From: Arcobacter sp. UBA7394
Lineage (GTDB): Bacteria; Campylobacterota; Campylobacteria; Campylobacterales; Arcobacteraceae
DNA: 13,523 nt
NCBI GenBank assembly: GCA_002470185.1
Contig: DKNG01000228.1
Span: 190 to 13,712, forward strand
Direction: 5' to 3'
Below the pieces are notes generated by a model. It was given only the letters and a program-made list of their open reading frames with translations. It did no database searches and was not told the DNA's origin. Within the stretch, counting starts at the first letter, position 1; each line of letters opens with the position of its first letter. Shown here piece by piece: positions 6,570 to 10,086 of the stretch. The position numbers were made by a program, and so were the translations under genes.

Positions 6570-8456
6570 TTACTCTACTTCAGCGTCGATAACATCGTCA
6601 TCGTCTTTTTTTGCTTTTTGGTTTGGTTGTGCACCAGCTTGGTCACCACCTTCTTTTTTGTACATAGCTTCTGCTAACTTGTGAGATTTTTCAGTTAAAG
6701 CTTTCACTTTTTCTTCAATTTGCTCTTTAGTTGCATTTTCGTCTTTTAATAATTCTTCTAATTCAGCAGCAGAATCAACGATAGCTTTAGTTTCTTCTTC
6801 AGAAACTGCATCTGGGTTTTCTTCTAATGTTTTCTTAGTTGAATGTAATAAAGCGTCAGCTTGGTTTCTTACTTCAATTACTTCTTTTTTCTTAGCATCT
6901 GCTTCTTTGTTAGCTTCTGCTTCATTTACCATTTTTTCGATTTCTTCATCAGATAATCCAGATGAACCAGAAATAGTAATTTTATTTTCTTTACCTGTAC
7001 CTTTATCTTTAGCAGATACATTTAAAACACCATTTGCATCAATATCAAATGTTACTTCAATTTGAGGAACACCTCTTGGAGCTGCTGGAATGTCAGATAA
7101 TTCGAACATACCTAAAGATTTATTATCTTTAGCAAATTCTCTTTCACCTTGACCTACGTGAATTGATACAGCTGGTTGGTTATCTTCAGCAGTTGAGAAT
7201 ACTTGAGATTTCTTAACTGGGATAGTTGTACCTTTTTCAATTAATTTAGTTAAAACTCCACCTAGAGTTTCAATTCCTAATGATAATGGAGTAACGTCTA
7301 ATAATAATACGTCTTTAACATCACCTTTTAATACACCAGCTTGAACAGCAGCACCTGCAGCTACAACTTCATCAGGGTTAACACCTTTGTTTAAGTCTTT
7401 ACCGAAGAATTCTCTTACTACTTCATTTGCTTTTGGTAATCTAGTAGATCCACCAACCATAATGATTTCTTCAATTTCGTCTTTATCTAAACCAGCGTCT
7501 TTTAAAGCAACTTTGATGTGATCTAAAGTTTCAGTAATTAAATCTTCAGTCATAGCTTCAAATTTTGCTCTAGTTAATGATTTAACTAAGTGAACAGGAC
7601 CAGCTGAACCCATAGAGATGAATGGTAAGTTGATTTCTGTTGATTCAGCAGAAGATAATTCTTTCTTAGCGTTCTCAGCAGCATCTTTTAATCTTTGTAA
7701 TGCCATTTTGTCATTTTTAACATCAAAACCATTTTCAGTTTGGAATTCTGCTGCTAACCAATCAATAATAGCGTTATCGAAGTCATCTCCACCTAAGAAT
7801 GCATTACCATCAGTTGATAATACTTCAAAAGTACCATCACCAATTTCAAGTGCAGTAACATCAAAAGTACCACCACCTAAATCATATACTAATACTTTTT
7901 CTTCACCTTTTTTATCTAAACCATATGCTAATGAAGCAGCTGTTGGCTCATTGATAATTCTTAATACGTTTAAACCAGCAATAGTACCAGCTTCTTGAGT
8001 TGCTTTTCTTTGTGCATCATTGAAGTATGCAGGAACAGTAATAACAGCGTCAGTTACAGGAGCTCCTAAATATTCTTCAGCGTCAGCTTTTAATTTTCCT
8101 AAAATCTTTGCAGATACTTCTTGAGGAGTATATACTTTGTCACCAACTTCAACAGCTGCTGCTCCGTTTCTATCAACGATTTTATAACCAACTTTAGATT
8201 GTGCTTCTTTAGCATTCTCTTCGTCCATCATAAGACCCATAATTCTTTTTACAGAATAGATAGTTTTTTCTGGGTTTGTAATAGCTTGTCTTTTTGCTGG
8301 ATCACCAACTAATACTTCGTTTTTGTCTGTAAATGCTACGATTGAAGGAGTTGTGTTCTTACCTTCTTTATTAGGGATAACTTTCGCTTCTCCACCTTCG
8401 TAAACTGCCATACAAGAGTTAGTTGTACCTAAGTCAATTCCAATTACTTTACTCAT
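6570..8456 (-). CDS. dnaK: Chaperone protein DnaK (Hsp70)
   Basis: ATP-dependent cytoplasmic Hsp70 that binds exposed hydrophobic peptides with DnaJ and GrpE. The 628-residue chain is complete. The N-terminal ATPase domain shows GIDLGTTNS (6-14), [12 protein letters not shown] (168-179), [11 protein letters not shown] (190-200) and [11 protein letters not shown] (331-341). The interdomain linker [11 protein letters not shown] is at 382-392, followed by the peptide-binding beta domain and the helical lid. The disordered tail ends in [11 protein letters not shown], as in proteobacterial DnaK. An AAGGA ribosome binding site lies before the ATG. The gene is separated from grpE by 212 nt, long for this operon, because of a 122-nt palindrome. 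DnaJ is not in the window. Confidence 0.99.
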
Positions 8457-8553
8457 TTTAATTCCTTATCAAGTTTTGTTTTTTAATTTTAATTTCAAAT
8501 ATTTTTTAAATCTATTAGTTTTTTGACATTACGGTCAGTTCAACCAAGTTGCC

Positions 8554-8675
8554 GAAATAGCATATTTTAGGCTAGTTCAAGGCAGACAAGAAATAGAAAG
8601 GAGAAGCTTACTTTTGTAAGTGACTCTTTTATATTTCGTAGTCGAACGTAGAAATAGTCAAAATATGTCTATTTC
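8554..8675. repeat. 122-nt imperfect palindrome between grpE and dnaK (MITE-like or structured repeat)
   Basis: The two halves pair along their whole length. The outer 7 bp GAAATAG (8554-8560)/CTATTTC (8669-8675) are perfect, then CATATTTT (8561-8568) pairs with AAAATATG (8660-8667). Further in, GGCTA pairs with TAGTC (one wobble), then interrupted pairing (TTC/GAA, GAC/GTC, GAAATA/TATTTC, AAAGGAG/CTCTTTT), and a terminal stem-loop CTTAC-TTTT-GTAAG (8607-8620). By hand I count more than 40 pairs, with a few single-base bulges and a weak patch at 8580-8584. The 7-mer GAAATAG occurs at 8554, 8590 and 8651 directly and at 8669 inverted. The grpE TAG stop (8669-8671) and its last Lys codon lie in the outer arm. 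The element codes for nothing evident. Transcribed from the operon promoter it would form a long hairpin that could pause polymerase or be an RNase III target, changing the GrpE:DnaK ratio (inference). Confidence 0.8.
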
Positions 8676-9238
8676 TTACAGATTGAAACCATTGCTGGTC
8701 TTAACAATCTTTCTTTTAATTTATAACCTTTTTGAAGTCTTTGAACAATCATTCCATCTTCATGGTCAGGGCTATCAATTTGCATTACAGCGTCGTGGAA
8801 GTTTGGATCAAATTCACCATCTGTATCAACTGTAGTAATATCATGTTTTTCAAAAGCAGTGTAGAAGTTTTTAATTGTTAATTCAACACCTTCTTTTAAT
8901 TTACCTAATAATTCATCAGCTGGTAAATCTGTTGCTGCTTCTTCAGCTGCTAGTGCCATCTCTAAAGTATCAATAGGAGCTAATAAATCTTTTGCAAACT
9001 TTTCAGATGCATAATCAATTGCTGCATATTTTTCTCTTTCAAGTCTTTTCTTGATGTTTTCAAAATCAGCATGTACTCTTAAGTACTTATCTTCTGATTC
9101 TTTTAATTTTGCTTCAAGTTGTGCAATTTTATCTTCAGCTGTTTCTTCTTTTACTTCTGTAACTTCTTCAGTTGCAGTTTCACAAGTTTCTTCAACAACT
9201 TCTTCAGTTGTTACTTCTTCTTTTTTTTCTTCGCTCAA
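8669..9238 (-). CDS. grpE: Nucleotide exchange factor GrpE (TTG start)
   Basis: Dimeric exchange factor that releases ADP from DnaK. Of 189 residues, the first 33 are Glu/Thr-rich and disordered, about 34-130 form the long helical and dimerising region, and the C-terminal beta domain carries the GrpE signature (about 143-187: FDPNFHDAVMQI and LLRPAMVSI). The start codon is TTG: the start triplet 9236-9238 reads CAA on the plus strand. It is well supported by an AGGAG site 6 nt before it, and no in-frame ATG lies between it and the hrcA stop. That AGGAG overlaps the TAG stop of hrcA, and only 9 nt separate the genes, so translation is probably coupled. The C-terminus ends in ICKK, with the last codon and the stop inside the palindromic element; the original end may have been altered by its arrival. 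Confidence 0.97.
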   Translation of the reverse strand: MSEEKKEEVTTEEVVEETCETATEEVTEVKEETAEDKIAQLEAKLKESEDKYLRVHADFENIKKRLEREKYAAIDYASEKFAKDLLAPIDTLEMALAAEEAATDLPADELLGKLKEGVELTIKNFYTAFEKHDITTVDTDGEFDPNFHDAVMQIDSPDHEDGMIVQRLQKGYKLKERLLRPAMVSICKK

Positions 9239-9247
9239 TTTTATCTC

Positions 9248-10039
9248 CTAAAAAGTTGTAATTTTTTTATAAAAGTATTCATAATTTTTTGGTAATTCGC
9301 CAATTACTAACATTTTCACATCTTCATTATTAACCTTACAATAGTGACAGATACCAATATAATCATCAGGTAAAAGTTCTTCAAAATATAGACCTTCGTC
9401 TACTCTGTCTAAAATTTCACCCTTTAAAAAGCTATTAATTGTTAGTTCATCAAAATTGTAATTCAATGCTAAATTTAAAAATTCTTTATAATTAAAAATT
9501 TCAAAATCCGAATTTTGTATTGTTTGCATTATTGCATCGTGTACTTCATATGCTCCAACATCTTTTGAGATTTTTAAAATATCTTTAGTTGAAATTCCAA
9601 CCATATCTTGTAAAAATCTATAAAGAGCATCAGAGAATTTCACAGTAATTGCAAAAGAAGTAAACTCTAATATCATATATTTATTGTCTACATTAATAAT
9701 GTCATTTAATACATCTGATTTTTCTTTTTTAATAAATACAGAAACTTCAACTTGTGATGCAAAATATTGTAAGGCTGGTAAATTTATATCTTCGATTTTA
9801 AAATTAAGTTTTGTAAGCCAGTATTGTTTTAAAGCTTCAGTAGTTGGGGTTCTTCCACTACTTATATGTTCTTGAGCTAAAAACCCTTCTTCACCCAACT
9901 TCTTAAAGTAACCTCTAATTGTTGCAGGAGAATAAGTAATATCATACATAGATTTTAATTGTGTAGACCCAATAGGTTCACAATGCTCTATATAAGCTTT
10001 AATAATAGACTGTAATAAAAACTCTTTTTTATTAATCAT
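9248..10039 (-). CDS. hrcA: Heat-inducible transcription repressor HrcA (short form)
   Basis: Repressor that binds CIRCE operators and shuts off chaperone genes at normal temperature. The 263-residue protein has an N-terminal winged helix (about 1-75) with the family blocks EPIGSTQLKS (21-30), YSPATIR (36-42) and ISSGRTPTTEALKQYW (59-74). The C-terminal part is short compared with the roughly 340 residues of Firmicutes HrcA but of the size I expect for Campylobacterota HrcA. I choose the ATG at 10039 (MINKKEFLLQS): the longer frame opening with GTG at 10066 would begin inside the CIRCE element and adds nine residues foreign to the family. No strong Shine-Dalgarno precedes this ATG, which fits low repressor output from a strong promoter. 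It heads the hrcA-grpE-dnaK operon and controls it, itself included. Confidence 0.95.
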   Translation of the reverse strand: MINKKEFLLQSIIKAYIEHCEPIGSTQLKSMYDITYSPATIRGYFKKLGEEGFLAQEHISSGRTPTTEALKQYWLTKLNFKIEDINLPALQYFASQVEVSVFIKKEKSDVLNDIINVDNKYMILEFTSFAITVKFSDALYRFLQDMVGISTKDILKISKDVGAYEVHDAIMQTIQNSDFEIFNYKEFLNLALNYNFDELTINSFLKGEILDRVDEGLYFEELLPDDYIGICHYCKVNNEDVKMLVIGELPKNYEYFYKKITTF

Positions 10040-10059
10040 TTTACAACCAATTTTATTTT

Positions 10060-10086
10060 TTAGCACTCGTTGTCTTAAACTGCTAA
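10060..10086. promoter_or_regulatory. CIRCE operator (HrcA binding site), one degenerate half
   Basis: The established CIRCE consensus is TTAGCACTC, nine bases, GAGTGCTAA. Here the half next to hrcA (10060-10068) matches 9 of 9, the spacer is exactly nine bases, and the promoter-side half (10078-10086) reads AACTGCTAA, 7 of 9. The element lies just downstream of the -10 box and covers the expected transcription start, so bound HrcA would block initiation. Confidence 0.9.

Follow-up and report, generated by a model that had tools for sequence, protein, structure and literature searches.

Among described repeats, the closest to the element analysed here are those known as ERIC, IRU or RU-1. They are 127 bp long and occur in Enterobacteriaceae and Vibrionaceae, according to the accessible text of a 2024 review (PMC10969869). 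In the accessible parts of the 2007 papers, the mechanism of their mobility is left unresolved, and the portions of reviews at hand class ERIC with MITEs. The same portions describe ERIC copies next to stop codons in Yersinia, where message levels are affected through an RNase E site. In the literature searched, a body of text with most subscription papers outside its scope, no publication describing such elements from Campylobacterota genomes was found.

The window, that is, the whole 13,523-nt stretch of Arcobacter sp. UBA7394 DNA that was analysed, carries hrcA, grpE and dnaK in this order on the minus strand. The first gene of the group, at 9248-10066, is presumably hrcA, as judged from its translation; grpE lies at 8669-9238 and dnaK, the downstream gene, at 6570-8456. 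The gap between grpE and dnaK is 212 nt and contains most of a 122-nt palindrome at 8554-8675. As the first-pass annotation had described, both this gap length and the position of the grpE stop (TAG, 8669-8671, minus strand) and last Lys codon inside the outer arm were found to be correct. The near end-to-end pairing read from the letters was borne out by RNA folding: the plus strand gave -43.9 kcal/mol (z -8.48) and the minus strand, which is the operon mRNA, -31.4 kcal/mol (z -6.27), and in each case none of 200 shuffles was as low. DNA folding of the plus and mRNA strands gave -23.2 and -15.5, respectively.

The element is non-coding and about 118 nt long, with a TA close to each end. Its TA-to-TA unit spans 8558-8671 on the plus strand, and the right-hand TA (8670-8671) is that of the grpE stop codon, where the element is placed. 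The outer arms, described at first as perfect, do pair, but with one T bulged: GAAATAGCATATTTT is opposite AAAATATG-T-CTATTTC. The predicted inner hairpin is present as GCTTAC-TTTT-GTAAGT at 8606-8621, and this core is in common with ERIC. Two conserved motifs, TTCAAGGC at 8576-8583, which is mostly unpaired in the fold, and AACGTAGAA at 8645-8653, lie on either side of it on the same plus strand. The GC content of the palindrome is 32.0%, against 22.7% in the rest of the gap (8457-8553), 29.6% in the window, and 33.8% and 28.9% in the two 1-kb flanks. The impression of a GC-rich block thus holds against the rest of the grpE-dnaK gap only. An Rfam search of the window returned no match to any family, and no terminator-like site was detected in 8300-8900.

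Further copies in the own genome and in relatives, for which the first-pass annotation had proposed a search, were found. A nucleotide search gave one copy in the own genome and matches in ten of 60 genomes, the own genome included. A consensus fold made from ten copies has 38 pairs, 22 of them with double-sided changes. A covariance model of length 118, termed R1, was built from these ten copies, all from the family of the window. It matches the window at 8556-8673 on the plus strand with 123.7 bits, this copy being one of the ten used for the model. R1 matched 33 of the 60 genomes, the own included, with 1-39 copies each, and these counts are lower bounds (strict filters; at most 61 candidates scored per genome). 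The nucleotide search therefore understates the family. The own genome, a draft of 268 contigs that is 86% complete, has three copies. By group, 28 of 37 genomes of the family of the window and five of 23 outside it had matches. When six genomes were searched again with R1, 3 (own genome), 9, 7, 8, 22, and 40 matches were obtained, one of the 40 being a reverse-strand duplicate. In a phylum-wide search, at least 70 of 298 genomes matched, again a lower bound (strict filters; at most 12 candidates scored per genome). Most copies are 112-120 nt long. Conservation lies in their loop motifs and pairing and not in the sequence of the terminal stems.

Subsequent counts refer to a set of 104 copies, comprising 86 from the six re-searched genomes, one of these added by a separate search, and the best copy from each of 18 others; a G009 copy identical to that of the window, the weak matches G009:1227040 and G022:470739, and the reverse-strand duplicate were left out. 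Genes around the copies were called as simple ORFs, and 99 of the 104 copies are located between called ORFs.

The published consensus of E. coli ERIC has AAGGC, GGAGCTTAC..GTAAGTGA, and AACGCAG in common with the Campylobacterota element, in the same order. R1 also recognised an E. coli ERIC copy located with that consensus, over the full model length and on the expected strand, but weakly (30.8 bits, E 1.2e-4), at a score similar to those of reverse-strand matches of true copies. Five Enterobacterales copies that had not been selected by motif (L182:4730, L170:763, L139:6863, L198:794, and L152:5672) scored 35.8-44.5 bits over the full length, among the matches listed. A core-motif scan of named genomes yielded at least 119 stretches, of which 80 were made into loci; among the matches listed were records of Enterobacterales, Alistipes and other Bacteroidales, Clostridia, Lysobacterales, Sulfurimonas, and Arcobacter. 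At E ≤0.01, R1 had matches in 75 of the 80 loci, at 93 places in total and over its full length at 91 of these, although most of these scores are partly built in by the choice of loci through the core motif. The other five loci (L146, L149, L158, L164, and L204) had no R1 match at this threshold. Many of the motif loci are MAGs, in which misbinning is possible. For the orientation and strand counts in named loci, 86 of the 93 rows were used, after removal of three reverse-strand duplicates, L189, L190, and two weak hits in L156. The first-pass annotation had suggested a MITE, a REP-like repeat or a regulatory hairpin. A small dispersed palindromic repeat is indeed indicated by the further copies and by relatives without the element (described below), but its type is ERIC/IRU rather than REP-like.

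The copies are placed in a characteristic way. In the 104-copy set, 65 are between tandem genes, 31 between convergent and 3 between divergent genes, 2 are inside a called ORF, and 3 have no neighbour. The model strand is opposite to the genes in 64 of the 65 tandem pairs, and 28 of the 31 convergent elements are oriented with the gene of the nearer stop. An upstream gene was sought only in the locked orientation, which left three copies without one; for the remaining 101, the element is within 37 nt of the stop codon of the upstream gene in 95 cases. The stops of the 101 upstream genes are TAA in 64, TAG in 35, and TGA in 2 cases. The host genes of the 101 copies fall into 54 clusters, and the recurrent sites include fabI (13 copies), guaB (6), grpE (5), nrdB (5), lepA (4), htpG (3), and purH (3). 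Among the matches listed, all nine tandem copies in named Campylobacterota loci were also opposite to the genes, a set that overlaps the 64 of 65 in at least one copy (L196 is L053).

Among the matches listed for Enterobacterales, orientation is not locked overall: 12 copies are opposite to the genes and 14 run in the same direction. Close to a stop codon (-20 to +10 nt), nine of the listed Enterobacterales copies are opposite and two the same, although some rows may represent one site. In Yersinia, De Gregorio and others reportedly found in 2005 that ERIC prefers one orientation next to stop codons, and the bias seen here near stops in Enterobacterales agrees with that study. The listed Bacteroidales copies are divided equally (three and three).

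Elements were also observed near rRNA genes in other Campylobacterota families (L300:2000-2113, L305:2020-2136, L313:2009-2124, and L316:2040-2156). The L305 and L316 elements lie between the 16S and 23S genes, and that of L300 between the 23S gene (end 1965) and the 5S gene (start 2359). Some genomes have three equal-scoring copies, which had raised the suspicion of a 23S rRNA intervening sequence; this was rejected since the L300 element is in the 23S-5S spacer and not inside the 23S gene. The orientation rule is kept in seven of nine rRNA-adjoining loci, while in L305 and L313 the model strand runs the same way as the rRNA genes. In four genomes of another family (L309-L312), the element is located 4-5 nt behind the stop of a gene of 635-658 aa, which is uvrB in L309. 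With the origin placed at dnaA near base 1 and the terminus assumed halfway, the upstream genes are co-directional with replication for 19 of 22 elements in G022, 8 of 9 in G009, and 7 of 8 in G011; for sampled genes the values are 53% (152/285) in G022 and 58% (140/241) in G009, and expression level is a possible confounder.

The conserved fold belongs to one strand, which is antisense to the upstream gene. The model strand is the more stable one in 103 of the 104 copies (mean -42.7 versus -28.1). Single mismatches on the model strand are GT or TG in 145 cases and AC or CA in 15, as counted on folds made with Watson-Crick pairs only on that strand, a procedure that is nearly but not perfectly strand-neutral. 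Among the matches listed, the same tendency is seen in Enterobacterales (model strand more stable in 41 of 41; 38 GT/TG, 3 AC/CA), Bacteroidales (17 of 19; 8 and 2), Clostridia and others (7 of 8; 4 and 1), and Lysobacterales (4 of 4; 4 and 0). The model strand of the element is G-rich (G 2670, C 1448) within C-rich flanks (C 1858, G 1554), which disfavours a general mutation bias as the cause.

The fabI site provides a second line of evidence. Across 14 genomes, the fold at this site has 40 pairs, which are 96.4% paired, and 22 of them show double-sided change. Shuffles gave a mean of 10.2 such pairs and slid structures at most 7, in a comparison that favours the unslid version because the fold was derived from the same alignment. 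Several G-T pairs are fixed or nearly so, and these correspond to A-C mismatches in the mRNA. These pairing data are probably best explained by selection on an antisense RNA or a single-stranded DNA. It should be added that the fabI gene upstream of the second element of the own genome (L122:1182-2007, contig C2; placed by homology in two frames) looks broken, with FabI homology at residues 1-193 and 249-274, either through an assembly error or in reality.

In the case of an ordinary MITE with terminal inverted repeats, a transposase acting at TA would mobilise double-stranded DNA, and the orientation bias would have no other cause than selection to keep the more stable hairpin out of the mRNA. 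Such an element would fit the classification given in the reviews, and the mRNA strand is in fact the one that folds more weakly. In addition, a symmetric TA is present near the ends of 70 of the 104 copies, compared with 132 of 624 (21%) at control places shifted outward. This symmetry is, however, partly a by-product of the palindrome. The terminal stems have diverged while loop motifs and pairing are conserved, and the double-sided changes and strand-specific G-T pairs in the 14 genomes with the fabI site point to selection after insertion. On balance, we regard an ordinary MITE as unlikely.

The position directly behind stop codons, the stability of the mRNA-strand fold, and the RNase E site of Yersinia ERIC would suit a regulatory hairpin in the 3' UTR, with the sense strand as the working form, serving for cleavage by RNase III or RNase E or for protection of the 3' end. 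The first-pass annotation had pointed in this direction. The mRNA strand does fold, but the pairing is kept on the other strand, as judged from the excess of G-T over A-C mismatches, and the nearly fixed G-T pairs of the fabI site become A-C mismatches in the mRNA. The strand comparison thus disfavours the mRNA-strand hairpin as the conserved form, and a 3' UTR hairpin of this kind appears improbable, to about the same degree as an ordinary MITE.

A chance hairpin or plain transcription terminator is scarcely credible. The dispersed homologous copies already rule it out as a complete explanation, and the z score of the fold and the lack of a terminator-like site around the palindrome speak against it as well. 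The flanks of some copies do look terminator-like: at 4-29 nt out, 34 of 104 reach a complementarity score of 9 or more, where permutation gives 3.3. Skipping eight flank bases removes this excess (8 versus 6.7 at score 8). Insertion into terminator loops is not supported as a general rule, since only the bases adjoining the element show the excess.

In our favoured reading, which is somewhat probable, the form in which the element would be recognised is a folded single strand, either antisense RNA or single-stranded DNA. With rather more assurance, the element is likely to be of the ERIC/IRU type in Campylobacterota, one of a family whose copies lie behind stop codons in a single orientation and keep their fold on the antisense strand.

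At the grpE site itself, the element is present behind grpE in three of ten same-genus genomes, the own one (G000) included, the others being G009 and G007, and the other seven have a grpE-dnaK gap of 75-90 nt without it. The comparison of gaps suggested in the first-pass annotation thus shows that the gap is not conserved, and the element is not essential, since relatives without it still have grpE adjoining dnaK. Outside the genus, the element also lies behind grpE in G011, G019, G035, and G032, with no dnaK start found adjoining it in G035. This makes seven of the 33 family genomes with a readable gap; the gap was not readable in G015, G021, and G028, and G012 gave no GrpE match. Apparent remnants were noted by eye in the gaps of G010 and G031. 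The outer arm tracks the last grpE codons, as GAAATAG/CTATTTC in the own genome, AAGAAGTAG/CTACTTCTT in G007, and GCGAACTAG/CTAGTTCGC in G035; the non-coding side has followed the coding side. In a GrpE tree of 26 of 36 genomes, which is weakly resolved, presence of the element amounts to four changes. The distribution may reflect loss, spread or re-insertion. No clean empty site showing duplication of TA was found, and beyond the right TA the sequence does not match the empty sites in the genus.

Other features of the gap were observed. On the minus strand at 8524-8537, TGACCGTAATGTCA is a motif of the type TTGACCGnnATGTCAnnAAACTA, or a close variant, upstream of dnaK. By eye, motifs of the TTGACCGnnATGTCAnnAAACTA type are present in the family genomes with read gaps, with or without the ERIC-type element, and could be a candidate dnaK promoter or operator. 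G033 (L258) and G027 (L267) have another palindromic segment just before dnaK, also recognised by eye, with a hairpin of the CACATGC..GCATGTG type followed by a GGTTGAA..TTCAACC hairpin. In L258, L265, and L266 (G033, G016, and G022), an A/T-rich repeat-like stretch of the TTTTTCACT..TTCATTT type was seen by eye in a gap without the ERIC-type element.

In the mRNA, the element at the grpE stop would form a stable hairpin ahead of dnaK. By analogy with Yersinia ERIC, this hairpin might shift the balance between grpE and dnaK messages, a possibility to which we give a little less than an even chance. The Yersinia work also makes it plausible that the upstream message would be affected in a ribosome-dependent way.

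In short, the phylum is an unexpected one for an ERIC-type element, and the copies there follow a tighter rule of placement and conserve a fold that is specific to one strand. A structure model that reaches far outside the enterobacteria, together with the strand-specific fold and the orientation lock, opens the way to direct tests of the recognised molecule, RNA or single-stranded DNA. The findings also bear on ERIC-PCR typing of Arcobacter. The available text of one paper (PMC7075591) describes the use of ERIC-PCR for typing A. butzleri, and that of another (PMC3566208) states that ERIC primer sites are absent from two A. butzleri genomes. ERIC-type elements are present in named Arcobacter, Halarcobacter, and Aliarcobacter records among the matches listed. 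The 3' ends of both ERIC-PCR primers fall in the diverged stems, and this could be why primer sites were missed in Arcobacter, the named records examined being from organisms other than A. butzleri. A wider and more speculative picture, which we put forward tentatively, is that ERIC might be more than an enterobacterial MITE, namely an old cross-phylum element that would work as a single folded strand, as antisense RNA or as single-stranded DNA. It would reach stop codons in one orientation and then be kept by selection for its fold, most strictly in Campylobacterota.

The element can finally be compared with other known systems. REPs are palindromes close to gene 3' ends, and the likeness to a REP with its RAYT is that of a palindrome near a gene 3' end. 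The REPs described in the abstract consulted are 20-40 bp with a tagged end; identification as such a tagged hairpin was rejected in view of the 118-nt unit. A Y1 transposase match was found in seven of 11 family genomes with at least eight copies and in seven of the 26 others, and Y1 as a required partner is not supported, since G033 has 32 copies and no Y1. Integron attC sites lie behind a stop codon in one orientation, with variable stems and the folded strand opposite to the gene. In these four respects the element resembles attC, though in outline only: ERIC-type elements are single copies behind housekeeping genes. At gathering level, Rfam gave nothing in six named loci. The Rfam family V_AS5 (RF02818), a Vibrio antisense RNA, matches E. 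coli ERIC on the strand that bears the conserved fold in the Campylobacterota elements, with a score of 48.1 bits (E 1.2e-9) that does not reach the gathering value of 96; the window itself gave no V_AS5 match even at E up to 1. With ERIC, the element shares the core and motif order, the palindrome of nearly full length, the intergenic multi-copy occurrence, TA near the ends, the more stable strand, and one preferred orientation near stop codons. It differs from ERIC in its length of about 118 nt instead of 127 bp, its A/T-rich composition and diverged stems, its nearly complete orientation lock, and its occurrence in another phylum.
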